64,000 bases of DNA, taken from positions 1-64,000 of the forward strand of contig NGFH01000004.1 of NCBI GenBank assembly GCA_002215675.1. The letters are read 5' to 3'. The position numbers and the translations under genes were made by a program. Under the pieces are notes generated by a model. It was given only the letters and a program-made list of their open reading frames with translations. It did not search any database and was not told the DNA's origin. Shown piece after piece: positions 16,901 to 43,200 of this stretch. Source of the stretch: Bacteroidetes bacterium 2013_40CM_41_45 (lineage in GTDB: Bacteria > Bacteroidota > Bacteroidia > AKYH767-A > 2013-40CM-41-45). The first letter of the stretch is position 1, and each line of letters starts with the position of its first letter.

Positions 16901-19744
16901 GGTACGGGAAGTTCCCTTGCTGTTAACGTAACGTCATCAACGCAATATTATGCAGCGACTATTAATAACACTACCGGCTGCGAAGGCAGCGCTGCCCGCC
17001 TGCAGGTTAATGTTACCGTTTTCCCGGTACCTACTGTAACCGCAGGAAGCAACAGCCCTGTTTGCGCGGGTAGTGCAATCAACCTTACATCGGTTGGCGC
17101 TGTAACGGTAAGCTGCGGAGGAACCTTTACTATCCATGTTTTTGGATCTGGATTTGGTGATGAAACTTCATGGCAATTTAAGAACGCCTCAAACGTTGTC
17201 ATTGCAAGCGGCGGCCCGTATGGATTTGGCTTTAACCAAACCGTGTCGGTGTCTTCTACCAATGCTCCGTTTACGTTCACTATCGAAACGGTTGGTTTCT
17301 TTAATGATAACGTTGCCAGCTATACGGTATCCTGCAGCGGCAACACACTCGTTAATGCAACCATTAGCGGAGGCCAGACCAACAGCGTTCCGAATATTTG
17401 CTGCGGAGCTGCTGCTGAGACTCCTTCAACCAATGTTAATATGACCAACGGTACCGTTTCTACCTGCAGTGCAAATTTCTATGACAGTGGCGGCCCTGCT
17501 GGTAATTATACCAATGCTCAAAACTTTACATTGACATTTACTCCAAGTTCACCGGGAGCATCCATGAGAGCTGTCTTCAATTCATTCAGCACAGAATTTG
17601 GCTGGGATGCATTGTATATCTATAATGGACCTTCAATAGCATCTCCTCTTCTCAGCAGCGGAAACGGCCCAACAGTTGGCGGCTTCCCTGCAGGCGGCTG
17701 GTGGGGTTCTGCTCTGCCCAATGGCGGTGCAGCTATTACATCTACTGACGTTTCAGGTGCGCTGACATTTGTGTTCCGTTCTGATTTCTCTGTTAATTTT
17801 GCCGGATGGGCTGCAACCATGTCATGCGTGGGTGGTCCTCCTCCTCCTCCTCCATACAATTGGACCGGACCTAACGGCTATAGTGTAAATGCTCAGAATC
17901 CTTCGCTTACAGCAACACCTGCTGCACAAGGAAACTATACGGTTACATTTACAACATCGAGCGGATGTACTGCTACTGCTACCACGTTTGTAAAAGTGAA
18001 TGTAGCGCCTGTAATTTCAACGTTACAGAGCGCAACGCTCAACGGCGGAGTGGCAACTACAATTCCTGCACCTCCTACCTTCCTCGATATTCCGGTGTTT
18101 ACAGAAGCACTGACATGCGATAAGGTGGTGAATTATAATGTTGCTATTTCCGGAGACCCGGCCCCGACTGTTGGCTATTCATTCAGCGGAGCTACTACCG
18201 GAAGCGGAAGCGGCACAGGTACCGGTTCTACATTCGGAAGGTTAATACCTACAGGAAGAACTACGGTTACCGTTAACTCATCTAACGTTTGCGGTTCACA
18301 ATCCAAACAATTCCGTGTAACGGTAACAGATAATGTTGCTCCTGTTATTACACCGATACAAGTACCCGCTACTAACACCAACGCAGGCGAATGTGCATCG
18401 TTGGTAATGGTAACACAACCAAGCTTAGGCAACGGGTTGTTTGACAACTGTCCTAATTCAAGCTTGGTTTTTGTAAGCCGTTCAGATGGCAGGTCACAGT
18501 TTGAGCCATATTATGCAGGCACAACCACAGTAACCTGGCAGGCAACGGATGCTTCGGCAAACACGAGCACTGCTACACAGGATGTAGTGGTTAATAACAT
18601 CAAACCGGTTATCACCAATTTCGTTTCTAATTCAGGCAACGTAATATTTGTGAACCAGACACCTACTTTCACAGTAACGTTTACTGATGAAGACGGAGGC
18701 GGCACACACACGGTTAAATTCTATCGTGATAAGAATGATGCCTCACCCGCCAGCACGAAGGTGATAGCTCCCAACTGTACTCAGTCATGCACAGGAGTAA
18801 GAAGTTACAACGTAACCTCAGACCCTATACTGTACTCAACATCAGAAGTAGCAGAACCTAAGGTTGAAGTATTGGACGGATGTAATCTTGCAGCCGACCA
18901 AGATCCGGGCGTAACCACCATTCAATATCTTGCCATAGCAGTAGCGGGCAGTCAGTTCACTACAGCGGGCGGACATTATACTATGCCGGCAGGCGGATAT
19001 CCTTCATCTTATGAGGGCTTCGATGTAAGCATGGGCAATGTGGTGAAACCCGGCACTGGTAGCCAAAGCGGCACGTTCAAAGGTCAGTTGGAAATGAACG
19101 TTCATATTCCTAACGCAGTCGACTGGAGAGTACATACCGACAACGGAACCAACACCGATATTACTTGGGATTATCTGACCATAAGCGGATGTTCACTTGC
19201 AACGTTTAAAGGAACCTGCAGACTCAATGGGGTAACAGGATACAAGGTACTTGTTCAACAGTCAGACAAAGACCGCAATCCTGCCACGAGCAACTTTATC
19301 CGTGTTAAGGTCACGACCACTGCAGGCGCAGTAGTGTTTGACACGCAACCGGGACTTACCGAAGCATTGACATCGGGTAACGGAGGCGCATCAGCTATTA
19401 TCGCAGTGCTAACTGGTGGCAGCGTAAGGGTACACCCCGTCAACAACAACTGTACGCAGAGAGTTGAAGGCACTGGCGCGGAAGGAGAAATGTTGCAGAA
19501 CATTCCTAATCCGTTCACAGGTCAGACGGAAATTCGTTTCAACGTACCGGAAGACGGCTTGTATACTTTGAAGGTTTACAACTATCTTGGACAGGAAGTA
19601 ACAACCTTGTTCAACGAAGAAGCTACAGCCGGAGCGGTGTACAGTGTTACGTTTGACGGCAGCAACCTGGGTGCAGGCATATATACCTACAATCTTAGGA
19701 GCGCTAACGTAAATGAAACACGTAAGATGAACCTGATGAAGTAA
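13979..19744 (+). CDS. Giant CUB-domain T9SS type A protein (cassette 1)
   Basis: 1921 residues with signal peptide (FIASVVSVNA-Q). Domain order by eye: three CUB-like domains (residues ~35-440; repeated NFYDSGG, GWDALYVYNGPS, SGGFPAGGWWG, LTFQFRSD); three PPC-like domains (~445-830; SLCGSLYDTRISAYSG, DNDDFCG, YYLRVYGFG); Ig-like segments (~830-1040); an Ig-like unit split by a ~250-residue insert that contains a fourth CUB domain (~1150-1285); then the ~575-residue C-terminal module shared with the other two giants, including an HYR-like domain (FDNCPNSS, TTTVTWQATDASAN). The end (LQNIPNPFTGQTEIRFNVPE, YNYLGQEVTTL, GIYTYNL, RKMNLMK) is a T9SS type A sorting domain. It should be a secreted, cell-surface multidomain protein; ligand unknown. 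No protease motif is seen. Confidence 0.92.
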   Translation: MKTFIQAKNNSVIKFIAVILVLFIASVVSVNAQTFNMTNGTFSTCSGNFYDSGGPAGTYNVNENFTITFTPSTPGAHLNVLFTSFSTEFGWDALYVYNGPSTASPLISSGNGGTSGGFPAGGWWGTTLPGGVAGITSTDPSGALTFQFRSDASVISTGWAANISCISPPIDVNMSNTSVTTCNANFYDSGGPSLNYNNSENFTMTFTPSAGNKIKALFSSFSTEFGWDALYIYNGPSTASPLISSGNGSTSGGFPAGGWWGSTLPGGGGGITSTDASGALTFQFRSDFSVNMAGWAAVISCVSANPDINMTNGTFAACGGNFYDSGGPGGSYNTFENYTLTINPNSPGNRVQVLFNTFSTESNWDALYIYDGPTTGSPLISSGNPGTVGGFPAGGWWGTTLPGGGTGITSSDASGALTFVFRSDASVVLPGWSAAVSCVPAPTGPPGDICTDATVIACGTPVTATTVGYSNTGDPVLCGTAGAPSRWYKFTAQYTTATASLCGSLYDTRISAYSGSCGSPTCLADNDDFCGLASQISFPTLVGQVYYLRVYGFGSASGQFTLNVTCQVPGDACSGAVPIALSCPGPMIITGTTVGASTDASDSNPFCLNSVAPSVWYTFTGNGQSIIASLCGGTFYDSELSAYSGTCGSLTCITNNDDFCGLQSQIQFPTVLGQTYFIRVHGFGFSSGSFTLHLSCVVPPVNDLCSGVAPVTLTSGVPQVFTGTTVGASPDGGFYTLPTVWHAVTLTAPSQLTVRLCGTSPAFLDAWIIIANICPSTFFTDIFANSWSQDCGDGNWSVRYNCLPAGTYYIPVLGSEPGFFNPGPYTLTVTATSTPVIGTVTIVPAGGVACGPTGVLTVSVSNFSGALQWQFESPVGSGIWFNVGGATFSPITLNANLGVGQEFASFGIRAVASVCSNQAISNSVTYSLNNPNQPTAPVGLNGCGSAVGSISATPNPLPNHNIRWYSAAVGGTLLGTGSSLAVNVTSSTQYYAATINNTTGCEGSAARLQVNVTVFPVPTVTAGSNSPVCAGSAINLTSVGAVTVSCGGTFTIHVFGSGFGDETSWQFKNASNVVIASGGPYGFGFNQTVSVSSTNAPFTFTIETVGFFNDNVASYTVSCSGNTLVNATISGGQTNSVPNICCGAAAETPSTNVNMTNGTVSTCSANFYDSGGPAGNYTNAQNFTLTFTPSSPGASMRAVFNSFSTEFGWDALYIYNGPSIASPLLSSGNGPTVGGFPAGGWWGSALPNGGAAITSTDVSGALTFVFRSDFSVNFAGWAATMSCVGGPPPPPPYNWTGPNGYSVNAQNPSLTATPAAQGNYTVTFTTSSGCTATATTFVKVNVAPVISTLQSATLNGGVATTIPAPPTFLDIPVFTEALTCDKVVNYNVAISGDPAPTVGYSFSGATTGSGSGTGTGSTFGRLIPTGRTTVTVNSSNVCGSQSKQFRVTVTDNVAPVITPIQVPATNTNAGECASLVMVTQPSLGNGLFDNCPNSSLVFVSRSDGRSQFEPYYAGTTTVTWQATDASANTSTATQDVVVNNIKPVITNFVSNSGNVIFVNQTPTFTVTFTDEDGGGTHTVKFYRDKNDASPASTKVIAPNCTQSCTGVRSYNVTSDPILYSTSEVAEPKVEVLDGCNLAADQDPGVTTIQYLAIAVAGSQFTTAGGHYTMPAGGYPSSYEGFDVSMGNVVKPGTGSQSGTFKGQLEMNVHIPNAVDWRVHTDNGTNTDITWDYLTISGCSLATFKGTCRLNGVTGYKVLVQQSDKDRNPATSNFIRVKVTTTAGAVVFDTQPGLTEALTSGNGGASAIIAVLTGGSVRVHPVNNNCTQRVEGTGAEGEMLQNIPNPFTGQTEIRFNVPEDGLYTLKVYNYLGQEVTTLFNEEATAGAVYSVTFDGSNLGAGIYTYNLRSANVNETRKMNLMK
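18010..19744 (+). repeat. Shared C-terminal module, copy 1 (with T9SS signal)
   Basis: Encodes the last ~578 residues of the CUB giant, nearly identical in protein and strongly similar in DNA to 31503-33244 and 42925-44651. Landmarks in order: LQSATLNGGVA, APPTFLDIPVFT, GSGSGTGTGSTFGRLIPTG, FDNCPNSSLVFVSRSDGRSQ, FTDEDGGGTHTVKFYRDKND, GGHYTMPAGGYPSSY, NVHIPNA.DWRVHTDNGT, VLVQQSDK.RNPATSNFIR, then the sorting domain. Confidence 0.93.
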
Positions 19745-19764
19745 TTTTTAGCATCATCAATTAA

Positions 19765-19798
19765 GAAAGGGCGTTCGTCAACTGACGAACGCCCTTTC
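19765..19798 (+). terminator. Rho-independent terminator of cassette 1
   Basis: Sixteen-bp perfect stem (19765-19780 with 19783-19798; GGGCGTTCGTCA / TGACGAACGCCC core) followed by TGTTTTAT. Homologous to the terminators at 33265 and 44669 with paired (compensatory) changes in the stem. Confidence 0.9.
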
Positions 19799-19844
19799 TG
19801 TTTTATGTATTCGCATAAGAACCTTTTAAATATTTTTTTTAAGC

Positions 19845-19852
19845 TAATTTTG
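19845..19852 (+). promoter_or_regulatory. Bacteroidota -7 box (TAATTTTG) for the kinase operon
   Basis: Exact TAnnTTTG match 29 bases before the ATG of the histidine kinase. The -33 region about 19 bp upstream is a T-run (CTTTTAAA) rather than a clear TTTG. Confidence 0.5.
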
Positions 19853-19881
19853 ATTCCTAAGAGTACGCAGAGGAATACGCG

Positions 19882-22098: not shown

Positions 22099-22493
22099 GA
22101 CCGAAAGTGTTTTTAATTGACGACAATAACATCGTTAATTTCATCAACAGGAAGACGATTGAAAGCTGTGGCTTTTCGGATAATATTGTTGAATACACCT
22201 CGGCAAGAAAAGCGCTGAGATATCTTGGCGAAGCGGCAAAAGGCACTCAGGAAATTCCGGACGTTATTTTTCTTGATATCAAAATGCAACTCATGAACGG
22301 GTTCGAATTCCTGGACAATTTCACCAAGCTTCCCCCAAGCGTAAAAGAAAAAGTGAAAATAATTATGCTCACTTCCTCACTTCTTGAATCGGATAAAGAA
22401 CTTGCTATGAAATATGAAAGTGTGATTGCATTTCTTAACAAGCCCATCACACGCGACAAACTGAGCAGCATAAGAAGCAAGCTTCATAACTAA
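22095..22493 (+). CDS. Single-domain (CheY-like) response regulator
   Basis: 132 residues, one receiver domain and nothing else. The acidic pair in FLIDDNN (residues 9-10), the phospho-acceptor Asp61 in FLDIKM, the Thr/Ser in IIMLTSS and the Lys in FLNKPIT are all present. There is no DNA-binding or enzymatic output domain, so it must act through protein partners or a phosphorelay. Its start overlaps the stop of the histidine kinase (ATGA), making the two a translationally coupled cognate pair. Stand-alone regulators of this type paired with PAS kinases are common in Bacteroidota. Confidence 0.94.
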   Translation: MRPKVFLIDDNNIVNFINRKTIESCGFSDNIVEYTSARKALRYLGEAAKGTQEIPDVIFLDIKMQLMNGFEFLDNFTKLPPSVKEKVKIIMLTSSLLESDKELAMKYESVIAFLNKPITRDKLSSIRSKLHN

Positions 22494-22522
22494 AATTTGG
22501 TTATTAGAAAGCTAAAGAAGTA

Positions 22523-22546
22523 AAGGAGACCTCATATCTTCTCCTT
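22523..22546 (+). terminator. Weak hairpin, possible terminator of the kinase/regulator operon
   Basis: AAGGAGA (22523-22529) pairs with TCTCCTT (22540-22546) around a 10-nt loop, 30 bp after the regulator stop. There is no proper T-tract, so termination here is uncertain. Confidence 0.35.
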
Positions 22547-22587
22547 ATTCAGTTCAGGGATAGCGATGGGTTTCATACAAGATGGAT

Positions 22588-24263: not shown

Positions 24264-24289
24264 TAGACAATAAACAAACCGAACTAACC

Positions 24290-27200
24290 ATGAAATCAAT
24301 TACTAAAAACTCAATAAACATGAAAACTATAAATTACTCACGTTTTGTATGTTCCGTCCTGCTGATACTGGGATTGTGGACAACAAATTCCTTTGCTCAG
24401 ACAACTCTTATTAACCCTGCGGGGGACGGTGGTTTTAGCAACGGGTCTACCTTTGCAGCTAATGGATGGACGGTTGCCAATTACGGCAGCTCGGTTAACC
24501 AATGGGTTGTAGGAACTGCTATCTCGACTGCGCCATTCTCAGGAAACAGCGCTTATATTTCCTTAGACGCAGGCGTCAGCAATACTTACAATATTACCTC
24601 AAGTACTTCAGTTTACTTTTACAGAGACGTAAACGTACCTGCGGGTGAACTGACTATGATGCTGACCTTTAACTGGAATGGATTTGGAGAAAGTTCCTGG
24701 GATATGATTGAGGTTTGGTCTGCTCCAACTTCGGTTATTCCGACAGGTGAGGCACATCCCGGAAGTGGTTTATGTACTCCTATTCCAGCCAGCTTAACAG
24801 GATCTACGTGCCTGGGTACTTTCCAATTAGTGAGCACTATTCAAACAGCCACTATAACATTTACTGTTCCGGCAAGTGGTCCAAGAAGAATTATTTTCAA
24901 TTGGAAGAGCGATACATCCGTTGGCACTCAGCCGGCAGGTTCGGTTGATAATATTTCACTCGTTACTATTCCCCCTTGCTCGACTCCCACAGCGCAGCCA
25001 ACCGGTCTTGCATTGACATCTTCCCCCTCTCAAATCAACGGCACTTTCACGGCAGCTTCCCCAGCTTCTGACGGATATCTTGTAGTGAGATACCCAACCG
25101 GTTCGGCTGTAACCAACCCGTTCAACGGAACAACGTATACTGTTGGCGGTGCGTTAGGACTTGGAACAGTCGTCCAAGCCGGAGCCGGTACATCTTTCAG
25201 CACCGCCGGATTGCTGAACAACACTTCCTATGATTTTTATGTTTACTCCATGAACAATGTATGTACGGGAGGTCCGTTATACATAACTGCCAGTCCGCTC
25301 ACAGGCACAGCTTCCACACCTGTCTGCTTAACTCCGACAGCGCAGGGGGCAGGTCTTGCACTGACACCTATTTCCATTTCACAAATCAATGGAACTTTCA
25401 CGGCTGCTTCTCCTGCTGCTGACGGATATCTTGTTGTAGGTTATATCAGCGGCAGCACAGAAGTCCCTCCGGTTGACGGAACAGTATATGCCGCAGGCGG
25501 TGCATTAGGATTTGGCAAGGTGGTTCAATCCAGCAATGCCACTTCTTTCAGCGCTACCGGATTGATAGCCGGCACTTCGTATGATGTTTATGTTTACGCT
25601 TATAATATATGTTCCTCAGTCAGGAAATACTTAATAGCCGGACGTCTTACAGGAACCGCTTCCACTCTTGCTGCTACCGCATACACGGCTACCGCACAAG
25701 GCGGTCTATGGTCGAATGCTCAAACATGGGCTGGTGGTGTCGTACCCGTTACAGGAAATGATGTATCCATTCCCGCCGGTTCAATTGTTACCGTTGACGT
25801 GGCAGTTACCATGCATAATTTAGACATCAGCGGTTTGCTTCAATGGAATACCGTTGCCAATGCAATGACGTTGCAAGGCAACCTGACCGTTAACAGCGGC
25901 GGTGTGTTTTTACCTTATACTTCCGCTCTTACGCCATTAGGGGTAACGGTAAACATATTCGGCAACTTCACAAACAACGGTTATGCAAACTGCGCTTTAG
26001 GCACAGGAACACAAACCTTAATTGCCTTTAACGGCATCGGTTCTATATTAGGTGGCACGGGTACTTTTCAACCCGGCATTGACGGAAGAGGTATTATCCG
26101 CCAGTTGTTTTTCCAATCCCTGGGAAGTTCAACTATAAATACCTCACAGAACTTAACTACTTTTAACCTGGCTCATGGAGCCGGCTCTTTAAATACGAAC
26201 GGCAAATTAAAAATAGATAATACGTCACAACTTTATGGCATGGCATTAAACACGCAGGTTGCCAGTGTGGCTGTAACCACTATGGGTACTTACAGCGTGG
26301 CTCCCGTAGTGTTTGGAGTTGCAGTTACTCAATATGCTAATGCCCTGGCGGCAACCCTGAATTCAAGATATGTATCCGGTACGCACGTATACTTATGTAC
26401 TGTGGCAGGAACATTTAATGCCACTGCCCCTACATGGACTACAACAATACCGGATGCTACCAGCGGACCCACTTTACTATATATCGGTGAAACGGGCACA
26501 CTTGGAAACCCTTATCAAATTACACTCACAGCACTTGGCACTCAATACTTTTTCAATGGTAGTTTGTATACATGTACCACCGCAGGTACTCCAACAGATG
26601 CAGGCGCTGCTTCCTTGGGAACAACGCCTAATGTCCTATATACTTCGGGCACTGCAGTATTCCGTTATGCAGGTACTCCTGCTATGGTTTCAGTTAATTT
26701 TAACGGAGCGGCAACTTTAAACGTGAGAAGCTTAAACCTCATCAATGGCGGAAGCGGTTATTCTTCTTCCACCGCGCCTACGCTTGTATTCAGCGTTGGT
26801 GTTGCCGGTGGTACGGTCACAACAACAGCCTTTGCCACTCCTGTTATCTTGTATAGTATTTTTGGCTCAGCAAGCTGCCAGGTTCAAAGGTCAGGTGTTG
26901 CTACTTTTTCAGGCGGCTTAATCATCAACAGCGACCAGGGAGCATCTGCTTCCGGCAATATTCAGTCATCATCGGGTGTGGGTAATATTTCAACGCTCAG
27001 CGGTGGTGTGAATTATACTGTTGCCCCGCAGATTGCTTTTGCCGGTCCATTAGCTCTTAACCTTATTACTAACCCTGGCTCGGGTTATAGCGCGGCTCCA
27101 ACCATCACCGTTTCCGGTGGAACTATTATTGCCGGTGTCGCTTACGCTTCAGCGAACTTTACAATTACCGTTAACCAGGGAACCGTACAATCAGTTTACC

Positions 27201-30200
27201 TGACTTCCACATCGGCTATCTATTCTGTTCCCCCCACCCTTACGATGTCAGCGCCCGGAGGAGCAGGCACAACAGCAACCCTGGAATTCCCTGCCACCTG
27301 CTGGCCTGCAGCAACTGCTAATATTGGAACCAATGGACAGATTCTTAGCTTTACAATGACTAACAACGGGTTCGGTTATACGAATGTTCCGTTAGTGGCA
27401 TTCGGTCCTACAAGCGGTACACCGCAAGGCGGCACATTTACAACAGCAGCTACAGCTCCAACAGCACGGGTTGCTTTGTATAATGTGGTATTAAACTTCT
27501 TTGCTCCTGCAACATCGGCTGTGGCTGCTCCCGATGATGCTATGATACCTTCAAACAGAAAAATAAATAACCTTGCCTTAAATGGTAATGGCAATGGTTT
27601 TAATTTATCCAGTAATCTTACGATTTTTGCTAACAGCGGCTTTTTTACTCCCTTGATTTTTGTAGCCAGTTTATCCAGTCCTGGTAATATATTAAATTTA
27701 AATGGCAATAACCTGCTGTTTACCTGGAATGGTTATGCAGGTGCATTCAGCACCTTTAACAGTGGCGGTGCCAATGTGTATATAAAAAATGGCTCCATGA
27801 CCTTGACAGGCAGGGGCGGTGCGGGCACCTTTAATTATCCGTTTGCAGGCACTACAACTTCAGGTGTTTTTACCTGGTTTGTCGGCACTACTCCAACAGC
27901 TATAACAACCGGTTGTAATGCAACAAAATATACAGTAACTGAATTGGGCGCCCCAAGCAACGGAACACTCGGAAACGGGAGCGCCATTGGCAACAGGGCT
28001 TACAGAGCGCAGTTTAATTCAGGCGCTGTGTCGGGTACCAATCCAACGATTACGATGCACTTTAATTCGCTGGACGGATTATCTACAACTCAAGACCTGT
28101 TGTTTCTTGGCGATGCCCCTGCTTTGTCAGGCCCATGGACGGTGAGAAGCACTGCCTTTGGCCCTTCGGGCGCATTACCTGCAGTCGGCTCTAAGATAAC
28201 GGCAACCGTGGCTCCCGGTCCCATAACCATTAACCCAGATAATTATTATGCATGGTTAATGGCGCTGCCTTGCACAGGTCCACCGGATGTGGCAGTTGTT
28301 ACCGGTCCTTCAACTGCTTGCAGCGCAGCAAACATGACACTTACTGCTGCGGGCATATCCACTAATTTAGGCATTACCAGACAATGGCAGTCAGCTTCGT
28401 CTTGTGGGGGTCCATGGACTAATATTGCAGCTGCTACCGGCCCAACCCTTACTACAACTCAAACGGCTACCACTTCATATAGAATGTTAGTGACATGTAC
28501 GTTTACCAGTCAAAGCACTCCCAGCAATTGTATTACAGTAACCGGTGCAAGCGGAGTTATTCTTCCTGTTATTACTTCAGTTACAGCAAATCCAACACCG
28601 GTATGTTTTAACGGATCCACCACGTTGACTGCGAATACTGCGGCAATTGCGGGCAATTATACTTTGAGTTCAATTCCGTATGCCCCAATTAGTCCGCCGG
28701 GAAGTACGATTGCCGGACCTATAGGAGATGATGTCTTAAGCGGCATCATTCCAATAGGATTCAATTTTACTTTCTACGGAAACACCTATACAAATGCATA
28801 TATTTCTACAAATGGCTATTTAACGTTCAATACTCTTTCCGGTGCTGGTTGCTGTTCAAGCCCGTTATTACCAAGTGCGGGTACTCTGCCGGATAACTTA
28901 GTGGCATTAGATTGGGTAGATTTAAATACTTCCTCTGGAGGAAATATTGATTATTTCAACTTAACGAGCCCCAACCGGTTTGTTGTTAGATATAATGCCG
29001 TCTCTGTTTATCTTGCCGGAGGCGGCACAGGTCAGGTCTCGGGTCAGATAATACTTTACCAAGACGGTACAATTGAAGTGCACAGTACTTCCGTTACAAC
29101 TAATTATGCTGCACATCCTCAAAGTCAGGGAATTGAAAACGCCGGAGGTACTTTAGCTACAACTGTTCCCGGACGAAATTCAGTTGTAGGTTGGACAGCC
29201 ACAAATGATGCCTACCGTTTCAGCCCGCCAACAGGAACATTTGCTTATACATGGTCCACAAGTGGTCCGGGCGTTTTATCCAGTACGACAACCAACCCGA
29301 CAACCGGTACATCCATTACGGGAAATACTACCTATAACGTAATAGTTACCAATGGGGCCTGCATTGCAACAGGCAGTGTAGCAGTCGCTCCGGGCGGACC
29401 TCTTGGTACTGCAGTAACAGCAACGCCTCCCTCATCAGCATCTGCTTATTGTACTCCGATATATACCAGCTATGACGGAACTGATTATATTTCCAACGTA
29501 ACCTTAAACGGAAGCCCTGCTATAAATAATACTTCCGGCGCAACTGTTTTGCCTGGGTATTCTCCTTTCCTTGGTATAAGCACAACCCTGGCAGCAGGTG
29601 GTACCTTTACTATTTCCGTAACGGATGGTTCATTCGGTTCCAATGAAAATCTGACTGCTTTTATTGATTATAATCAGGATGGTGTATTTAACGTAGCGAC
29701 AGAGCAAATATTGCCGAATTTTATTACAACAGCTGCCTTTCAAACAACTACCGCATCCTTTACAGTACCTGCAAATGCTATCAACGGAACTACAAGGTTA
29801 AGGGTAGTTGACAATTATTTCACTACTCCTGCTCCGCCTTGTCCGACAGCGGGATTTGGAGAGACGGAAGATTATACAATTAATATCACAGGTGGTATAA
29901 CACCTTCAGCTCTTGTCTGCCCAGGTCTTCCCTGGACATTGTCAGCTGTTATAACAGGCGGTGGCGCTCCTTATACTATCCTTTGGAGTGGTGATCCGGC
30001 AGCAACGGCAGGATTGATTACGAATAATACAGCTACGGTTACAGCTATACCACTTGCGCCCACAACTTATAGTGTTTTAATTACAGATAATTGCGGTATT
30101 ACCGCAACACAAAGTGTATTTGTAAATGTAAGGGTAACCACGCCTACGATAGGCACTGTCACTGCAAGTTCAGCTTCGGGTTGCGGAGTAACACCGGCTC

Positions 30201-33200
30201 CTCCGAACATTTCAGGGGCGCCTGTTACTTTCGCAGTTGATGCATTTACCGGCGATAATCTTATCTGGCAATTTAATGTTAACGGTGGTGCCTGGACAAC
30301 GATTCCCGGAGCGTTAACATCTCCAATATCACTTGTTCCGACCATTCCTCAAGGTGGCGGTCCTGTAACATTTGGATTGCGTGCTCAAAGTTATTTCTGT
30401 GCAATAAATCCTGCTACTTCAAATGCGGTGACATTCATTATGGATGACCCGGCTGCTCCCACTGCTGTTACTGGGGGAGCTCGCTGCGGCCCTGGTATCG
30501 TACCGGTTACGGCAAGCGTACCTGCCGGGCAGACAGTGGAATGGTACACTGCAGCCACAGGCGGCACTCTTCTTGCCACAGGAAGTTCGTATAATTATCC
30601 TGCAACCGCAAGCACAACCATTTACGCGGCAGACCGCAATCCTTCTTCAGGATGCCTTGGTTCTTTGCGTAGGGGTTCGAGCATAACGGTCAATAACATA
30701 CCGACTGTGACGGCAAGCAGCAACAGTCCTGTTTGCGTGCCGAACGCTATAAATCTTACCGGCACTTCCGGTTCTATCCCTGTAGCGGGAGGTACCTTCA
30801 ATAATGGCGTTCCTCCTATAGGAGGTTCCAATGCTTACCCGTTCAATACAGGTACGGCAACACCCAAGTTGATTCAGTGGTTTGTCGCCCCGGGCGAGTT
30901 TAACAGTCCCGCCCCGGCCACTCCTGGTACAATAAATTCCATAAGCTTCTTTGCTTTAACAACTGGCTCTGCGACCTTCACCAACTTTACCATAAGGTTA
31001 GGGCAAGCGAGTAGTCCGTTTGCAGGCGGTTCGATCTATGCTGGTCCAATGACCGCTGTTGTTGGTCCCGCAAACATGTTAGTTTCTGCACCTACTGCTC
31101 TTGGATGGACCAGTACAATAACCCTTACAACACCTTTTTTATATGACCCATCTCAGTGGCTTGTTGTTGAGGTTTCGCATTGCGGATATATCGGGACGGG
31201 ATGGCAAACACCTCAGAATACCCTAAGTGGTGTAAGGAGAACTTATAATAACGGTGGTTTCAGTTGTTCACCAGTTTGGGTGGGAAATGATGCCACCATG
31301 GCTGGTATCACTATCCAAATGGCATCTCAAACATTCGGCTACTCTTGGACGGGTCCAAACACTTTCTCAAGTTTTGATCAGAACCCGGTTAGAACACCAA
31401 GTATTCTTGCCCAGGAAGGTGTATATACAGTTACAATTACTGATAATGGCACCGGCTGTAATTCGTCTTCTACAACTTCAGTTATAGTTAATGCGGCACC
31501 TCAGATTGTATCGCTTCAGAGTGCTACTTTGAATGGCGGAGTTGCTGCATCATTCCCCGCACCTCCTACCTTCCTGGATATTCCCGTGTTTACAACAGCC
31601 ACAACCTGTGATAAGGCGGTTAATTATAATGTGGTTATTACGGGTAAGCCCAACCCGGCCGAAGCGGTGAGCGGAATTACCCACACCTTCAGCGGAGCAA
31701 CCGTTGGCAGCGGAAGTGGTACGGGTACCGGTTCGACCTTCGGAAGGTTGATTCCAACCGGCAGAACCACGGTGATTGTTGCTGCAAACAATGTGTGCGG
31801 TAATCAGAGCAAGACGTTCCGTGTAACGGTAACGGATAATGTTCCTCCTGTCATCACACCGATACAGGTATCTGCCACCAATGCCAATGGAGGCGAATGT
31901 TCTTCTTTAGTACAGGTAACACAGCCCAGTATAGGCAACGGGTTGTTTGACAACTGCCCCAATTCAAGCTTGGTTTTTGTAAGCCGTTCCGACGGCAGGT
32001 CACAATTTGAGCCGTATTATGCAGGCACAACCACGGTAACCTGGCAGGCAACAGATGCTTCGGCAAATACAAGTTCTGCTACGCAGAATGTAGTGGTTAA
32101 TAACATCAAACCGATCATCACCAGTTTCGTTTCTAATTCAGGCAACCTGATATTTGTGGGTCAGACTCCTACGTTCACAGTAACGTTTACTGATGAAGAC
32201 GGAGGCGGCACGCACACGGTTAAATTCTACCGTGATAAGAATGATGCTGTCCCTGCTAATGTGAAGACACTCAGCCCCAGCTGCACCCAATCATGTTTGG
32301 GAGTAAGGAGTTACAGTGTAACGTCAGACCCGGTATTGTATTCTAATTCAGAAGTAGCCGAGCCCAAGGTTGAAATTCTGGACGGATGTAATCTTGCAGC
32401 CGACCAGAATCCTGGAGTAACCACGGTGCAGTATCTTGCCATAGCAGTAGCAGGCACCCAGTTCACCACGGCAGGTGGCCACTACACTATGCCGGCAGGC
32501 GGATATCCGTCCTCATATGTGGGCATGGATATAAGCATGGGTAATGTTGTAAAACCGGCAAGTAGCGGCAACAGCTTTAAGGGACAATTGGAAATGAACG
32601 TTCATATTCCAAATGCGCCTGACTGGAGAGTGCACACCGACAATGGAACCAACACCGATATTACCTGGGATTATCTGACCATAAGCGGATGTTCTTTGGC
32701 AACATTTAAGGGAGCCATACTGGTTAACGGAGTGAGTGGCTATAAGGTGCTGGTACAACAGTCAGACAAGACGCGTAACCCTGCCACGAGCAACTTTATT
32801 CGTGTTAAGGTAACGACCAACTCGGGAACCTTGGTGTTTGACACCCAACCGGGCCTTACCGAAGCATTAACATCGGGCAACGGAGGAGCAGCAGCTATCA
32901 TCGCAGCGCTGACAGCAGGTACTATCAAGGTACAACCGTCTAACAGCAGCAGTTGTACGCAGAGAGTCGAGGGTGGTATGGATGGAGAGATGTTACAGAA
33001 CATCCCCAATCCATTTACCGGTCAGACAGAAATCCGTTTCAGCGTACCGGAAGACGGGCTGTATATACTGAAGGTGTACAATTATCTTGGACAGGAAGTA
33101 ACAACGTTGTTCAACGAGGAAGCTACAACCGGAACAGTGTACAGTGTTACTTTTGATGGCAGCGATCTTGGTGCAGGAATATATACCTATACTCTTAGAA

Positions 33201-33244
33201 GCGGTAACGTAAATGAAACACGCAGGATGAACCTGATGAAGTAA
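24290..33244 (+). CDS. Giant multidomain T9SS type A protein (cassette 2)
   Basis: 2984 residues; the true start may be the internal ATG at 24320 (MKTINYSRF...), which gives a normal signal peptide (FAQ cleavage) and matches the MKT starts of its neighbours. Order by eye: a jelly-roll 'choice-of-anchor J'-like domain (~38-230), two Fn3-like repeats (~235-455), a long beta-rich region that may be a beta-helix (~460-1330), Ig-like units, an Ig-like unit split by a NIDO-like insert (IPIGFNFTFYGNTY, STNGYLTF; ~1450-1650), a GEVED domain (~1717-1868; FIDYNQDGVF, GETEDYTI), more Ig-like units, a second split Ig unit, then the shared ~580-residue C-terminal module ending in a type A sorting domain (LQNIPNPFTGQTEIRFSVPE). 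Surface-exposed by inference; no catalytic motif was recognised. Confidence 0.92.
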   Translation: MKSITKNSINMKTINYSRFVCSVLLILGLWTTNSFAQTTLINPAGDGGFSNGSTFAANGWTVANYGSSVNQWVVGTAISTAPFSGNSAYISLDAGVSNTYNITSSTSVYFYRDVNVPAGELTMMLTFNWNGFGESSWDMIEVWSAPTSVIPTGEAHPGSGLCTPIPASLTGSTCLGTFQLVSTIQTATITFTVPASGPRRIIFNWKSDTSVGTQPAGSVDNISLVTIPPCSTPTAQPTGLALTSSPSQINGTFTAASPASDGYLVVRYPTGSAVTNPFNGTTYTVGGALGLGTVVQAGAGTSFSTAGLLNNTSYDFYVYSMNNVCTGGPLYITASPLTGTASTPVCLTPTAQGAGLALTPISISQINGTFTAASPAADGYLVVGYISGSTEVPPVDGTVYAAGGALGFGKVVQSSNATSFSATGLIAGTSYDVYVYAYNICSSVRKYLIAGRLTGTASTLAATAYTATAQGGLWSNAQTWAGGVVPVTGNDVSIPAGSIVTVDVAVTMHNLDISGLLQWNTVANAMTLQGNLTVNSGGVFLPYTSALTPLGVTVNIFGNFTNNGYANCALGTGTQTLIAFNGIGSILGGTGTFQPGIDGRGIIRQLFFQSLGSSTINTSQNLTTFNLAHGAGSLNTNGKLKIDNTSQLYGMALNTQVASVAVTTMGTYSVAPVVFGVAVTQYANALAATLNSRYVSGTHVYLCTVAGTFNATAPTWTTTIPDATSGPTLLYIGETGTLGNPYQITLTALGTQYFFNGSLYTCTTAGTPTDAGAASLGTTPNVLYTSGTAVFRYAGTPAMVSVNFNGAATLNVRSLNLINGGSGYSSSTAPTLVFSVGVAGGTVTTTAFATPVILYSIFGSASCQVQRSGVATFSGGLIINSDQGASASGNIQSSSGVGNISTLSGGVNYTVAPQIAFAGPLALNLITNPGSGYSAAPTITVSGGTIIAGVAYASANFTITVNQGTVQSVYLTSTSAIYSVPPTLTMSAPGGAGTTATLEFPATCWPAATANIGTNGQILSFTMTNNGFGYTNVPLVAFGPTSGTPQGGTFTTAATAPTARVALYNVVLNFFAPATSAVAAPDDAMIPSNRKINNLALNGNGNGFNLSSNLTIFANSGFFTPLIFVASLSSPGNILNLNGNNLLFTWNGYAGAFSTFNSGGANVYIKNGSMTLTGRGGAGTFNYPFAGTTTSGVFTWFVGTTPTAITTGCNATKYTVTELGAPSNGTLGNGSAIGNRAYRAQFNSGAVSGTNPTITMHFNSLDGLSTTQDLLFLGDAPALSGPWTVRSTAFGPSGALPAVGSKITATVAPGPITINPDNYYAWLMALPCTGPPDVAVVTGPSTACSAANMTLTAAGISTNLGITRQWQSASSCGGPWTNIAAATGPTLTTTQTATTSYRMLVTCTFTSQSTPSNCITVTGASGVILPVITSVTANPTPVCFNGSTTLTANTAAIAGNYTLSSIPYAPISPPGSTIAGPIGDDVLSGIIPIGFNFTFYGNTYTNAYISTNGYLTFNTLSGAGCCSSPLLPSAGTLPDNLVALDWVDLNTSSGGNIDYFNLTSPNRFVVRYNAVSVYLAGGGTGQVSGQIILYQDGTIEVHSTSVTTNYAAHPQSQGIENAGGTLATTVPGRNSVVGWTATNDAYRFSPPTGTFAYTWSTSGPGVLSSTTTNPTTGTSITGNTTYNVIVTNGACIATGSVAVAPGGPLGTAVTATPPSSASAYCTPIYTSYDGTDYISNVTLNGSPAINNTSGATVLPGYSPFLGISTTLAAGGTFTISVTDGSFGSNENLTAFIDYNQDGVFNVATEQILPNFITTAAFQTTTASFTVPANAINGTTRLRVVDNYFTTPAPPCPTAGFGETEDYTINITGGITPSALVCPGLPWTLSAVITGGGAPYTILWSGDPAATAGLITNNTATVTAIPLAPTTYSVLITDNCGITATQSVFVNVRVTTPTIGTVTASSASGCGVTPAPPNISGAPVTFAVDAFTGDNLIWQFNVNGGAWTTIPGALTSPISLVPTIPQGGGPVTFGLRAQSYFCAINPATSNAVTFIMDDPAAPTAVTGGARCGPGIVPVTASVPAGQTVEWYTAATGGTLLATGSSYNYPATASTTIYAADRNPSSGCLGSLRRGSSITVNNIPTVTASSNSPVCVPNAINLTGTSGSIPVAGGTFNNGVPPIGGSNAYPFNTGTATPKLIQWFVAPGEFNSPAPATPGTINSISFFALTTGSATFTNFTIRLGQASSPFAGGSIYAGPMTAVVGPANMLVSAPTALGWTSTITLTTPFLYDPSQWLVVEVSHCGYIGTGWQTPQNTLSGVRRTYNNGGFSCSPVWVGNDATMAGITIQMASQTFGYSWTGPNTFSSFDQNPVRTPSILAQEGVYTVTITDNGTGCNSSSTTSVIVNAAPQIVSLQSATLNGGVAASFPAPPTFLDIPVFTTATTCDKAVNYNVVITGKPNPAEAVSGITHTFSGATVGSGSGTGTGSTFGRLIPTGRTTVIVAANNVCGNQSKTFRVTVTDNVPPVITPIQVSATNANGGECSSLVQVTQPSIGNGLFDNCPNSSLVFVSRSDGRSQFEPYYAGTTTVTWQATDASANTSSATQNVVVNNIKPIITSFVSNSGNLIFVGQTPTFTVTFTDEDGGGTHTVKFYRDKNDAVPANVKTLSPSCTQSCLGVRSYSVTSDPVLYSNSEVAEPKVEILDGCNLAADQNPGVTTVQYLAIAVAGTQFTTAGGHYTMPAGGYPSSYVGMDISMGNVVKPASSGNSFKGQLEMNVHIPNAPDWRVHTDNGTNTDITWDYLTISGCSLATFKGAILVNGVSGYKVLVQQSDKTRNPATSNFIRVKVTTNSGTLVFDTQPGLTEALTSGNGGAAAIIAALTAGTIKVQPSNSSSCTQRVEGGMDGEMLQNIPNPFTGQTEIRFSVPEDGLYILKVYNYLGQEVTTLFNEEATTGTVYSVTFDGSDLGAGIYTYTLRSGNVNETRRMNLMK
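31503..33244 (+). repeat. Shared C-terminal module, copy 2
   Basis: Encodes about residues 2405-2984 of this giant. Same landmarks and order as copies 1 and 3; small differences include an extra NPAEAVSG loop near its start. Nucleotide similarity extends through the stop codon and into the terminator. Confidence 0.93.
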
Positions 33245-33264
33245 TTTTTAGCATCAGCAATTAA

Positions 33265-33298: not shown

Positions 33299-33321
33299 TG
33301 CTTTGTGTCTTTTTCGAAATG

Positions 33322-33345
33322 GGTGTCCGTCAACTGACGGATGCC
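33322..33345. terminator. Orphan terminator-like hairpin
   Basis: GGTGTCCGTCA pairs with TGACGGATGCC (11 bp, two G-T pairs), followed by TCACTTTTCTTTTC. It is a fourth relative of the cassette terminators but follows no gene, so it may be a leftover of a deleted or duplicated cassette end. Confidence 0.5.
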
Positions 33346-33372
33346 TCACTTTTCTTTTCACTTGTAGAAATA

Positions 33373-34237: not shown

Positions 34238-34280
34238 ATCTATATGACGAAATAAATACCCAACTAAAAAAACTAATCAC

Positions 34281-37200
34281 ATGAAAACAAATAATTACAC
34301 CATAAAAAATTTTGTAATGACTTTCAGGAGAGTTAATGTACTTGTCATTACAACTATGTTGCTTTTGGTAAACATAATTGCTTTGGCGCAAGTACCTCAA
34401 TTTTATAATAATGCAGGGGGAGCGGGTTCTAATACTTATCCGCTCGGTCAAACGGTAGGACAAGTAGTACAATGGGGAGTTGCCCCGGGAGGATTTAATT
34501 TACCTTCTGCCGCACCGGCAGGCAATAACATAACGGCTCTTTGGCTGTATGTTCCTTCTGCCTGCAATGCCAACTATTCAAGCTTTAAAATTAGGCTCGC
34601 TCAGGTTTCATCGTTAGCTGACCCGTTATGGACAGCAGCAGCTTTTTACAGCTCCATGACTACGGTATTTGGTCCGTCCTCCATAAACATCACCGCTTCG
34701 GCTGGCACCTGGACCAGTTTGACTCTTAACACACCTTTTTTGTATGATCCTTCAATGGCGCTTCTCGTTGAGGTATCTCAATGTGGCTATACAGGAACAG
34801 GTATCAATGTATTTACCTTTTCAGCTGCAAGTCCCAGTAGAAAATTTGATGCTACACCCAATTGCGTTTTAGGCGCGGAAAGTCAGGATGCTCTCTTGAG
34901 TCCCATAGGACTTACTCTTGTTCCTTCCGGACCGTGTACCGATCCGCCTACTCCCGGAACCGCAACAGCATCCGCATCCTCGGTTTGCGCCAGTTCAGCA
35001 GTTTCGCTTAATCTTACAGGAGCATCTTTAGGTATCGGACAGACGTATCAGTGGAAAAGTGACCCGTCAAGTGGAGGAAGCTTTTCAACCAACGTAGGCG
35101 GATTGCTTACCAGTCCTTTCCTAACTATTAATCCTACCTCAGCTTTATTTTATCGCTGCGCTGTAACCTGCGGCACCACTACATTGAATTCAACCGCGGT
35201 TCAGGTTACCGTCATACCAGGCTTTCCGGGGGGAACCTATACCATTGATAATACAATTCCAACGGGCGGTACAAATTTCCAATCCTTTACAGCTGCCGTA
35301 AATGCAATGCTGACGTGCGGAGTATCGGGCTCGGTCGTCTTCAATGTTACAGCAGGGCAAACATTTAATGAAAACGTTCCGCTGATAACGGTTAACAGTG
35401 ATAACCTTCGAACCATCATCTTTCAGCGGAGTGGCTTTGGAGCTAATCCTGTAATTGTTCCCACAGGAAGCACTCTTACAACGGATGCAGGTATTGCAAT
35501 TAACGGAAGTGACTTCATAACTTTTAACGGAATAGATATTACTGCTTCGGGAACTGCAGTTGAAACCGGGTATAGGATTATCCAGCAATCTGCCACGAAT
35601 GGCGCTCAAAACAATACGATTAAAAATTGCACCATAACATTAAACAGAACCAACACAAATTCGCGCGGCATTTTTCAAACGGCAACGTTAACACCAACTT
35701 CTGCTGCGGGTGCAAACAGTAATAACGTATATCAGAATTTAACCATTAAAAATGTTTATGCCGGAATACAATTGACCGGTATTCAAGTTGCAACTTTTCC
35801 TGACCGCAATAATGTGATTAATACTTCCGGATGCGGAACCAATAATATAATTGGCGACCCGCTTACCTCATTTGACATAGGCGGTGGAATTACTGCAATT
35901 CAAACCTGGGGTATCCGCCTCACCAACCAGGCAGGATTTACGGTAAGCAATAATATTGTGAATAATGTTTCAGGCAACACGACTACAGATGGTATATTGA
36001 TTGAAACATATATTGGAATAGCCGGTAGTCTTGTAAGCACTCTTTCGAACAACGTGGTAAAAAGTGTAAGAATTAATGCAAGTGTTTCAACACAGGTAAA
36101 CGGTATCCGGCTGTCTCATACAACTCTTGTTGTGCCGGCAGGTACAGTATTGCGCGTATTTAATAATGCTGTGTCGGGAATTACTTCAGCTTATGCCGGC
36201 GCCGCTTTGACATTGGCAACTACTACCGGTATTAAAGGCATTGTCATTTCGGGAACAGGTGGTTCAACGATTAATCAAACCTATGAAATCTATAACAACA
36301 GTGTGAGCCTTGATGGTTCAGGCTCATTGAATTTATCGAATGCCTGTTTCCAGATAACATCAACTGCAGGTTTAGGCCCCATTAATATAGTGAGGAATAA
36401 CATATTTTCAAACTTTACAGGAGCTCAGGGGATTACTTCAAAACACGCAGGTGTCTTCACAGCGAGCCTGGGCAGTGCAACTGCCATGGGCCCGGCCGGA
36501 AGCTCTGTAGCTAATAATGATGTATTTATTAATGCTGATGCAGGCATATCGGGATTTGTAGGCATGGGCTCAACTACGGGATACAACCCGGTAGCAACAT
36601 GGCAGACAACCTATACCCAGGCAACGGCAAATCAAAGTCTTGCTCCGCTATTCTTAAATAACATTACTGATTTGCATGCGAACAATGGCGCATTAGATGC
36701 ATTAGGGTTTGCATATCCTGCTTATCTGACTATAGACCTTGATTGCGCAACCCGCACCGGAACACCGGATATGGGAGCGTATTTGATTACCCCTTGTACA
36801 GGTGTGCCTTCTGCCGGTACAGTTACTGCAACTCCCTCTTCTATTTGCCCCGGGGGTTCTTCTCTTTTGACCGCAACGGGATTTTCTACGGGTGTTACAT
36901 TTCAATGGGAATCTTCGGCTGTTACGGGCGGCCCCTATAGTCCTATTGGTGGTGCGAACTCACCGACTTTTAATACCGGCCCTCTTCTGAGTAATACTTA
37001 TTACAGGCTTACGGTTACCTGCGTACTTTCTTCACTTCCCAGTTCAAGTTCTGAAGTTGCAGTTAGTATTATAGCTGCCCCTTCTGCAAGTATAACTCCT
37101 GCCGGGCCCATTTCAGGATGCCAGGGAACCATTACTCCATTGAGTGCATCCACGAACGCTGTTAGTCCTATATACCAATGGAAACGTGATGGCGTTAATA

Positions 37201-40200
37201 TTCCGGGAGCTACAAATTCAACGTATACACCTGTTCTGACAGGGGTGCATACCGTTAGCATTACAGATATTGCCTCACCTGCTTCGTGCCCCGGTTTATC
37301 CGCCGGTGTTACTGTAACGGTGCTTCCTGTACCCGCAATTACAGTTTCTGCAACAAATGCGTCAATATGTTTTGGTAGTTCAACCACATTGTCTGCCGTG
37401 CAAGGAGGCGCTCCCGTTATTTTTAGTGACTCCTACATTGCAAATACGGCTCCTACCTTAGCTCAATGCAATGCCTATGCAGCTTTTCGGGCTTCGTTGC
37501 AGCCGTTAACTTACACTCAGCTGAAGCTAAGCGGCTCACTTGACCCTATTGGAAAAACGGCTATCAATCCTGCCGTTGTTCAGGCAATTGCTAATGCAAT
37601 GAAAAATAATACAGCCCTTTTGAATATGATAGATGGTGCCAATGCCTGGGGTGTAGGAGTATGCGGAGCCGGTTGTGGCGCTGCGCAGTCGAATGAATTA
37701 ACAGTTGTGCCGGGAGCAGCATCTTCAAATTGTGCGTGCAATACGGTAGGAGCAATTACTATCCGACCCGAAATAAATAATCTTAATTGGGGTGGTGTTA
37801 ACGGGTTAACCTGTGCAGCTCCTTCTCAAACGCTCACGGTCATGTTCACCGGCCAGGGACCACTGCCTAATTATTCATGGTCGCCGGCTACAGGTTTAAG
37901 TTGCACCAATTGCCCGAGCCCGATAGCATCTCCAACTGTAACTACGACTTATACGGTTACTACTACCAATCCCAATGGTTGCACCGGAACAGGTACCATA
38001 ACCATCAATCTAATTCCTAGTCCTCCATCGCCAACAGCTTCGGCAGCCAACCAGGTTTGCGGATTTGGCACCGTTACTCTTAACGCAACCGGTACGGGCA
38101 ATCCCGGAACCTCGCTGCGTTGGTATAGTGCTCCCTCAGGTGGTTCCATTTTGGCAACCGGCGGCACGTTTACAACTCCGGAAATCGGTACAACAACAAC
38201 TTTTTATGTTGCCGAGTTTGACGGTACGTGCGAAGGTATCCGGACAGGAGTAAACGCGGTTTCCATAACTCCGACTCCTGTCGTGGTCACCAACAGCATT
38301 CCTGCTATCTGCAATGGCGTAAACACACCTTCTACGTTGACTGCAAGCAGCAGCAATTCCAATTACGTATACCAGTGGACCCCTACAACGGGACTGACAC
38401 CGGGCAGCGGCCTTGGCGCCAGCGTGCAGGCATTTCCTTCCTCTACAGTTAATTACCTGCTCACCGCTACGGATAATACAGTTTCACCTGCATGCGTAGT
38501 AAAAATTAATACTACTGTTGGCATAGGACAAACTCCGGTAATGTCGAGCATAAGCGCAACTCCTTCTGCCGTTTGTACAGGGGAGCCTTCTGCGCTGAAT
38601 GCTTTAGCAATATTTGAAGGATTCCCGACCACTCAAAATGGATTCCAGGGATTTTTTGCTCCGCTTTCATGGACTACCCAGCATTCAACGGGTGACTTGG
38701 GAACAGTTAATATATTTAATTCAACAACGTTGCAAATGACATCGAGTGACGGAGGAAGCGGTGCGACGGATATTGATGTTATACATAACATTACAGCCAA
38801 TGGCAACGTAACGTTTAGCTGGGACTACAATACTCCGGATGGCCCCGCTTTTGACCAGCCTCAGTATTATAAGAATGGTGTCAGAACGAATGTGCCCGGG
38901 TTTAATACCGCAGGTACCGTTTCGCAGAGTGGCACTGCATCAATTCCTGTTGTTGTCGGTGATATATTTGGATTTTCAATGCACTCTGTTGACAACATAG
39001 TAGGAGGCGCTACTTCTAATTTTACAAATGTTGTATTCCCATTACCTGCCGGCACCGGTGTTATTGCCTATTCATGGACTCCGGCAGCTACCCTGAATAC
39101 TTCAACAGGTGCTACAGTTCTGGCAACACCTCTTGTTGGCGGAACACAGGTTTACACCGTTACAGCATCCAACGAGGGTTGCAATGTTACGGCAACAGTT
39201 ACTCTTAATGCAACACTAACACCGCCTGCTCCGGTTGCGACAGGAACATCTGTATGCGGACAAGGAATGGCAACGGTATCTGCTACCGGCACCGGTGGAA
39301 CTTTGCTTTGGACTGATGGTACCGGAGGAAAAATTATTGGTACCGGAACGTCTTATAGCGAGTACATTTCTGCAACCAAACAGTTCATGGTTAGAGAAAA
39401 TCCGGGCGGAGTTAATCAAAACGTAGGATTAATGGCCAATGCCCCGGGTGTAGTTGCTTATGCAAGTGCATCATTCAATTACCAGACATTTAATGTATTG
39501 TCTGCGCACGGAATTATTATCAACACGGTGGATGTCGTTCCGAATTTTGCTACACCGCTCGGTACACCTATTGAAATTGTACTTGAAAATAATCTTGGTG
39601 TGCAAATTGGACCTGCGTTATCTTTTGTTACAACAACTCAAGGTTCAGTCCAGACTTTGACTCTGAATATGTTTGTACCGCAGGGCAACATATATCGCTT
39701 ACGCGCGAGCAAGAATCCCAATCTTCAGTACCATCAAAGCGGATTCGTGAACCCCTATACCATACCGGGCCAGGTATCTATAACCGGATGGGATGGTGGC
39801 GCAACATTGTATGTATTCTTCTATCACTGGAATGTGACTACAGCATGTTTGGGAGCTTCATCCACTGCTACAGCCTTGGTTACACCGGCTCCTCCATTAA
39901 CCGTAACGCCTCCAAGCGGAGCATATTGTAATAGTGGCTCTGTAGCCCTTACAGCAGGAGGACCGTCCTATGTTAATTTCAGTTGGTCTCCTTCTGCAGG
40001 TTTAAGTTCAACAACGGGTGCATCTGTTACTGCCTCTCCCTCCGTTACTACTTCCTATATTGTTATGGCTAATGACGGCTTACCCGGAGGTTGTGTTGAT
40101 TCTCAAACCGTAGTCATCAATGTCAATACCGGACCTAACTTGGCAATAACCCAGACGGCTCCGTATCCGACAGTATGCCTTGGATACTCATTCCCCTTAA

Positions 40201-43200
40201 ATGCAGTAGGGTCATCAAACAGCTTTAAGCAGTTTGGAAGCAGTCATCTCTCTGCAAATAACCAGGCTGCTGTTCTTTACAATGGCGGCAATGCAAGCGT
40301 AAGGTCGCAAGTTCTCTATACCGCTGCCGAACTAAATGCTGCAGGCCTTGTGCCGGGTAATATATCGGCCATTGGATGGGAGGTTGCTACCAAATTAAGT
40401 ACAGGAACGTATTCAAACTTTACTATTAAGATGGCCAACGTGCCCGATGTAGCATTAACGCTTAATTATCTTAACCCCACATTTACCACGGTATTTAATG
40501 GAAGTGTGGTAACGTCTCTTGGATGGAACGTCCATAACTTTACAACTCCTTTTGCATGGAATGGCACTTCGAGCATTCTTGTAGATGTATGTAACGGCAC
40601 GGGACCTCCGTTTGGTTTTGACCAGGTTTACACTTCGGCAACTTCCGCCACTTTAACCATTAACATTACAACGCTTGGTTGCACTTCAGTTTCGGGCGCT
40701 GCGGTTGCCTTCAGGCCCAATACCCGGCTTTATGGCGGTGGAGTAAATTATTCATGGGCCCCTGCGGTTGATTTATCGTCAACTACAATTTCTAATCCTG
40801 TTTATACTTCTACCAGTACCGGAGTTAAAACATATACAGTTACCGCTACAGACCCTGCCAATTTATGCACGTCAACTGCTGTTACAACGTGGGAAGTAAG
40901 CACAACACCAAGGCCGGCAATAGCGGTAGCAACGGGTGATGCTATATTCTGTTTTAGCGGAGTACCTCAGATGGCTATAACAAACACCACAGGAAGCTAT
41001 CAGTGGGAAAGTTCTACAGATGGAATTAACTTTAATCCAGTTGGAAGCGCAACCGGCAGCACTTTCACTGCAGCAACTATTTCCAGCACTTCGTATTACC
41101 GGGTTTCAGTTCAGTGCAGCGGGCCGGTTGTTTACTCTAATGTATTGCAATTTACAGTGAACAACCCTGCTGTTGCAAGCACCACTCCAAGCACTCCCAT
41201 ATGTGGCTTTGGAAATGTGTGCATGAGCGCTACGGCTAACAATCCTAGTTATGATATTAAGTGGTATGCTGCGCCTTCTGGCGGAACATCATTGTTCACA
41301 GGCAATACATTCTGTCCTACTATTAACGCAACAACTACTTTCTATGCGGAAGCATCTACTGTAGGCAGCCAGATTGTTTCGCAAACGCCATTGACCACCA
41401 CTTTTGTCGGAGGTAATGGATTTAACGGTAACATGTTCGACATAACAGCAATTAATTCAGTTAGAATAGACAGCTTTGCGATGAACATTAATGGCCCGGC
41501 CACCGGCATAGGTGAAATTTGGTATCGCGCAGGTTCCTGGGTAGGGTTTAATACAAGCAATGCCGGATGGACACTTGCTGGTACAGCGCCATATACTTCA
41601 CTGGTTACAGGTGCGCCCGGAACAATAATTCCTGTATTTATTAATGTTGTAGTTCCTGCCGGACAGACCTATGCATTTTATGTTCATGCTTCAACTTCCA
41701 ACACGTATACAAACGGAACATTAGCCGGTAATATATTTTCTTCCGATGCTAACATCCAGTTTAAGGAAGGTGCCGGAGGAGGATATTTTACAGTGACGAA
41801 TATACCAAGGGTATTTAATGGCAGAATATTCTATTCACTTGGCGGAGGCGCATGTACCTCTCCTCGTGTTCCGGTTCTTGCCGTGTCTAACCCGGCGCCC
41901 CCCATTACGGTTACACCTCCGCAGAACATGTGCTTTGGTTTTGGAACAACGATTTCTGCAAGCAGCCTTAACAGCGGTTACACTTATTTATGGAATCCGG
42001 GTAGCTTGAGCGGTGCATCACAATCTGTGAATCCCCCTGCTAATACTACCTATACTGTTGTAGCAAGTGATAACAGTGCAGGCCCCAATAACGGTTGCAA
42101 TATTTCAGCTTCAACCACAATAACTGTTAAACCGGTTCCGAATATTACTTCTATCGGAAACAATTCCCCGATTTGTGCGGGAGGTACTCTTAATTTAACC
42201 TCCTCTTCTAATTTGTCCTCATCAGGTGGTAATTTCTTTAACATCATACCTTCGGGAACCACAAATATTTTCCCGTTCAATACCGGCCCTAAAACAATAC
42301 AATGGTTCGTTGCACCGGGAGAATTCATAAATCCCACCGCGGCACCTGCCGGCTTAATAAGCACGTTAGGCTTTTATGCAGCTAATGCAAGTGCAGGCGC
42401 TACCTATACTAACTTAACAGTTAAGTTAGGGCAGCTAAGCAGTCCTTTCGCAGGTGGTTCGTTGTATACAGGCCCTATGACTACTGTCCTTGGTCCTGCT
42501 ACAACCACTATTACAGCTACAGCCAATGCCACGTTTAATTTAACCCTTACAACTCCATTCACCTATAACCCTTCACAGTGGCTTGTGGTTGAAGTTTCGC
42601 AGTGCGGTTTAAGCGGTGTAGGAATTTCTCTTATTCAGAGTACACTTGCGGGCGTAAGGAGAACTTATAATGATAACGGGGCAAGTTGCATGCCTATAAA
42701 CTTTATTGGAAATGACGGAGCTATGGCAGGTATCACTATCGGAATGATAGCTTCTGCAGGCTATAATTGGATCGGGCCAAACAGCTTTGTCAGCAGTGTT
42801 CAGAATCCTTCTATATCCAGTGTTACAGCTGCAGCTACGGGCAACTACACCGTTATTGTTACAGACGGTACCAATGGTTGTACTACAACTGCAACTACAA
42901 GTGTCCTCATTCATACTCCCTCTCAGATTGTATCGCTGCAAAGCGCTACTTTGAATGGTGGAGTTGCTACGGTATTCCCGGCACCTCCTACTTTCCTCGA
43001 TATTCCGGTGTTTACAACCGCACTGACATGCGATAAGGTAGTGAGTTATAATGTTGGAATTACAGGCATACCTGCACCTTCACTTAATTACACATTTACC
43101 GGTGCAACGGTTGGCAGTGGAAGCGGCACAGGTACCGGTTCGACCTTCGGAAGGTTGATACCTACCGGAAGAACTACAATTACAGTTGCTGCAAGCAATG

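Follow-up and report, generated by a model that had tools for sequence, protein, structure and literature searches.

Split or discontinuous Ig-like domains have been described in RTX adhesins (e.g. FrhA, MpIBP and AhLap), where they project ligand-binding domains from the axis of the protein (PMC10865825, PMC12077191). In FrhA, 12 residues of the split Ig-like domain precede the insert and 106 come after it, and the break follows the single first strand (PMC10865825). The first-pass annotation of the locus studied here proposed the display of inserted domains from a stalk as an undescribed construction rule; the split Ig-like domains of the RTX adhesins already embody it (PMC10865825, PMC12077191). 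For type IX proteins, no description of such nesting was found in the open-licence literature. The LAIR1 inserts of LAIR1-containing antibodies are mentioned in PMC8270905. The grappling hook protein GhpA of Aureispira (PDB 9flp and others) is, like the proteins studied here, a giant of Bacteroidota with tandem homologues of their plain Ig unit. It differs in that profile matches follow one another at ~83-residue spacing along the visible stalk, with no comparable insert there. The structure of GhpA has reportedly been solved by cryo-EM. In the integrin beta hybrid domain and the pilus adhesin RrgA, as in the LAIR1 antibodies, a domain is inserted in an Ig-like or related fold. To our knowledge, these two and the LAIR1 antibodies are single cases, without an exchangeable cargo family on a repeated bacterial stalk unit.

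In this study, we analysed a window of 64,000 nucleotides of Bacteroidota DNA, which encodes three giant proteins with split Ig units: P0001 (1921 aa, 13979..19744), P0002 (2984 aa, 24290..33244) and P0003 (3456 aa, 34281..44651). These and all features below lie on the + strand. Very probably, a whole second domain has been inserted in the B-C or F-G loop of an Ig_7-type stalk unit that retains its fold, and the cargo can be exchanged. The evidence for nesting is good, and sequence comparison supports the exchangeability of the cargo for several families. This is a widespread variant of the known split-Ig principle and, as far as we found, new for the Ig_7/type IX family. Shared with the RTX adhesins are the giant fibrillar form, the tandem Ig-like units and a discontinuous Ig-like domain, probably with the ends of the insert close together. 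RTX adhesins break after the first strand, are exported by type I secretion and carry RTX repeats, whereas the window giants break after strand B or F, have Ig_7-type hosts and probable type IX tails, and hold several cargo-bearing units within one protein. No RTX families are among the Pfam matches of the three giants, and phmmer returned no solved relative of P0003.

The type IX secretion (T9SS) tail, Por_Secre_tail, is of type A in P0001 and clears both cut-offs there (30.5 bits vs 27 and 27.2 vs 23). In P0002 it clears the NCBIfam cut-off (29.9 bits vs 23) and stays below that of Pfam (26.6 vs 27); in P0003 it is below the Pfam cut-off (23.3 bits vs 27), without a match to TIGR04183. The last ~570 residues of the three giants are paralogous, 84-86% identical, and belong to no known family except for the sorting tail. 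In every giant, this common C-terminus is preceded by the final split Ig.

The uninterrupted unit is repeated in P0004, the first gene of the window (3..5168), which consists of an array of Ig units followed by two PKD domains and a CHU_C T9SS domain. The 19 uncut copies reported earlier for this gene were counted as 19 complete units and one partial unit at the window edge, and the unit, which served as our reference, is Pfam Ig_7 (PF19081). As whole proteins, P0001, P0002, P0003 and P0004 all exceed the curated Ig_7 cut-off of 27.3 bits. The plain unit is homologous in sequence to GhpA of Aureispira (E 1.8e-21).

Seven places in the giants are Ig_7-type units cut between strands B and C by ~150-250 foreign residues. 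P0001 holds one of them, with an N-half of strands A and B at 17027..17098, a cargo at 17099..17851 and a C-half of strands C to G at 17852..18001 (case 1). In P0002, N-half, cargo and C-half lie at 28562..28636, 28643..29233 and 29234..29386 (case 2) and at 30698..30769, 30776..31333 and 31334..31495 (case 3). The B-C splits of P0003 are found at 37329..37403, 37413..37868 and 37869..38018 (case 4); at 38535..38603, 38604..39047 and 39048..39209 (case 5); at 40140..40211, 40212..40733 and 40734..40892 (case 6); and at 42135..42221, 42222..42761 and 42762..42920 (case 7). With a profile built from the 19 units of P0004, the N-half ended at profile positions 22-28 in six of the seven places, a weak first half continuing into the insert in case 6 (40212-40740), and a matching C-half was present downstream of the insert in every one. 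We then used a one-jump Viterbi split-profile alignment, in which one long jump is allowed inside the unit and intact units are masked. Cases 1 to 7 scored 88.8, 66.5, 65.4, 108.9, 63.2, 70.9 and 68.8 bits, two of the seven on the cut-out region only, with jumps of 248, 197, 186, 152, 148, 174 and 180 residues and breaks at columns 21-27 of 77. The seven split units of the first-pass annotation are thus upheld, all seven scoring 63-109 bits with halves that match the uninterrupted unit, against no call of at least 50 bits in reversed sequences; the ranges it gave for them are the inserts, correct within a few residues. When each case was aligned to the 19 units by unguided MAFFT, the gap fell at B-C in no more than four of the seven.

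All seven breaks fall in B-C as first noticed, and this loop is not the sole acceptor as had been supposed, since the F-G loop is also used. P0003 contains two further split units, absent from the earlier annotation, at ~39222-39893 and 41166-41888. In the first (f1), strands A to F (39222..39395) are followed by a cargo of a family named FGa (39396..39830) and by strand G with its conserved Cys (39831..39893); in the second (f2), strands A to F (41166..41354) are followed by a cargo of the family FGb (41355..41840) and by strand G (41841..41888). In the alignment of uninterrupted units to f2, one gap opens, exactly at F-G, and an intact F-G loop is visible in an uninterrupted Ig_7 unit of P0003 that belongs to the WY subtype (38022..38258). 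With a profile of this subtype, most calls of at least 50 bits break at columns 57-65 of 79, i.e. after strand F, and reversed sequences gave no call at 40 bits. The FGa family is present in 164 of 295 genomes of the class. By inspection of 30 fetched loci, it lies between the F strand and the G strand in all 43 copies, 42 of which passed the first half-profile threshold and 28 both. In many genomes (L091-L096, L100, L103, L105, L106, L108, L110, L111) a pair of FGa composites stands in tandem, ~213 residues apart.

Structure prediction, proposed at the outset as a check, favours a single fold in case 6 and leaves the hinges of f2 uncertain. The composite model of case 6, based on an alignment of 42 relatives, is confident (pLDDT ~70-96) and has the strand order A, B, cargo, C, C', F, G, which is the order in the adjoining plain unit (39894..40130). 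It is this order and the confidence of the model that suggest that the two halves form one Ig. The alignment behind the f2 model contained uninterrupted units; host and strand G are confident, and the hinges and part of the cargo have low confidence. The F-G half of our first structure model was effectively single-sequence and was left out of use. Whole-model Foldseek scores are low (for case 6, TM <=0.16 vs query length) and serve as hints only. At this level, the f2 cargo weakly resembles CBM35-type modules (E 0.002).

The B-C and F-G loops both lie at the N-terminal pole of the Ig sandwich. By analogy with the RTX split Ig-like domains, the giants would likely hold binding domains sideways of a stalk secreted by the type IX system, the two ends of each cargo lying near each other and away from the main direction of pulling. 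Sideways display from the stalk is plausible on this analogy; ligand binding by the cargo and bypass of the load may go with it. Nesting might also be mainly mechanical, a cargo outside the load path staying folded while the stalk is pulled and display being secondary. From established Ig topology, a host broken at either loop still has its A and G termini in line, and the hosts are set in rows of tandem Ig units that resemble those of GhpA (E 1.8e-21), which fits such a role. The mechanical role is compatible with display, and as the main reason for nesting we consider it possible but rather doubtful.

For a nested arrangement with exchangeable cargo, which we prefer, the strongest evidence is internal to the window, namely the exchange between the paralogues P0001 and P0002. 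The halves of their last split Ig units (cases 1 and 3) are 67% and 52% identical (z ~12.5 each), and the adjoining C-termini are 84% identical. The inserts of these two units are unrelated (z -0.7). Matching halves and a common C-terminus, yet unrelated inserts, indicate the same socket with different cargo. The inserts of cases 1 and 7 compare at z 1.9, and those of case 3 in P0002 and case 7 in P0003 are 56% identical.

Compared all against all, the inserts of the window fall into a jelly-roll-like (JR) family, a NIDO-like, a CUB-like, the FGa and the FGb families and two singletons. Case 1 carries a beta domain related to an insert of another locus (L180), followed by a CUB-like domain; case 2 is NIDO-like; cases 3, 6 and 7 are JR; and cases 4 and 5 belong to unnamed families. 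The inserts had been taken for CUB, NIDO-like, jelly-roll-like and further domains. They are indeed unrelated kinds of whole domain, and the names are weakly supported. For CUB (PF00431) the best E-value is 0.0093, three of four copies match at E up to 1 and the nested copy itself has no match; for NIDO (PF06119) the best E-value is 0.0046, and two of five copies match at E up to 0.1. No Pfam match was obtained for 43 members of the JR family, nor for the FGa and FGb families. A weak match of the JR profile to IcmE proved to be repeat-like noise, and IcmE was rejected as a JR relative.

Several of these families also occur free-standing. P0001 has three free CUB-like copies (14078..15316), and P0003 begins with a free JR domain (34377..34925), the fourth JR copy of the window. 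Relatives carry JR either inside the B-C loop or as a free domain close to the start of the protein, and in the case 4 family eight relatives have the domain free, following the protein start, and two have it nested (L229, L230). Cargo also appears in either loop: JR occupies B-C in most loci and F-G in locus L216, and FGb occupies F-G here as well as in L031 and L192, with relatives in B-C in L154 and L198. Weak matches suggest that the case 5 family may likewise use both loops. Alternatively, the composite might be one ancestral multi-sheet domain, with no socket and no exchangeable cargo. No free-standing FGa was seen among 43 sampled copies, so nesting may be obligatory for FGa rather than exchangeable, and the NIDO-in-Ig composite recurs in other genomes of the same class, with marginal half scores in some, as such an origin would allow. 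Against it stand the free-standing CUB-like, JR and case 4 domains, the unrelated cargo in the same socket and the presence of JR and FGb in both loops, which make a single ancestral domain unlikely.

The search with a split profile proposed by the first-pass annotation was extended to 140 proteins. Pairing of partial hits to the plain profile yielded 59 pairs vs 42 in reversed sequences and was therefore dropped for the one-jump alignment. The latter made 145 calls of at least 50 bits, several of the short-jump ones looking like cross-talk between neighbouring units and not genuine, and none in reversed sequences. The break fell in columns 19-30 (B-C) in 110 calls and elsewhere in 35; the sample is biased in that many loci had been fetched with a JR composite, and 83 of the 110 B-C inserts belong to the JR cluster. 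A Cys is kept in each half in 96 of the 110 B-C calls and is invariant in the JR and F-G alignments. Other B-C cargo in Bacteroidota includes full or nearly full Pfam domains (GEVED, Reelin_subrepeat-B and the lamin-tail domain LTD). Taken alone, the split hosts are recognised by Pfam Ig_7 in one of 43 composites. This near invisibility and the shortness of the N-halves would suit halves that are remnants of decayed Ig domains beside ordinary tandem domains; such an arrangement is nevertheless very improbable, for the two halves complement each other, break off and continue at one and the same column, retain the Cys pair and show joint conservation around inserts that differ.

In the nested reading, which we hold to be very probable, a complete cargo domain is spliced into the B-C or F-G loop with the Ig_7 host fold retained, and the cargo is swappable, as unrelated domains in the equivalent socket of paralogues and families found in both loops or free indicate. 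We lean, with no great confidence, towards a more general view, in which the Ig_7-type units of Bacteroidota are a two-socket display chassis whose loops B-C and F-G can take many unrelated domains as cargo, mobile between proteins and loops, and provide type IX giants with a mix-and-match binding repertoire missed by current annotation. Because split hosts are nearly invisible to Pfam and three cargo families (JR, FGa and FGb) have no match, annotation takes a large part of such giants for unknown linker. The two-loop cargo rule could serve to find candidate binding domains in surface proteins of Bacteroidota, as the split-domain criterion already serves for RTX adhesins. Exchange can be tested directly in the paralogues, where an equivalent socket holds different cargo.

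Viral contigs were searched and yielded no relatives of the B-C or F-G composite. A record labelled Glaciecola amylolytica (Gammaproteobacteria; L157, 4451-13207) encodes an Ig_7 giant of 2918 aa that has B-C splits of the JR type and carries a T9SS tail, with two more T9SS-tailed proteins nearby; this giant reflects either horizontal transfer or a record that is mixed or wrongly labelled. In the window itself, a protein with several cytochrome c family matches is encoded close downstream of the giants (46373-47608).
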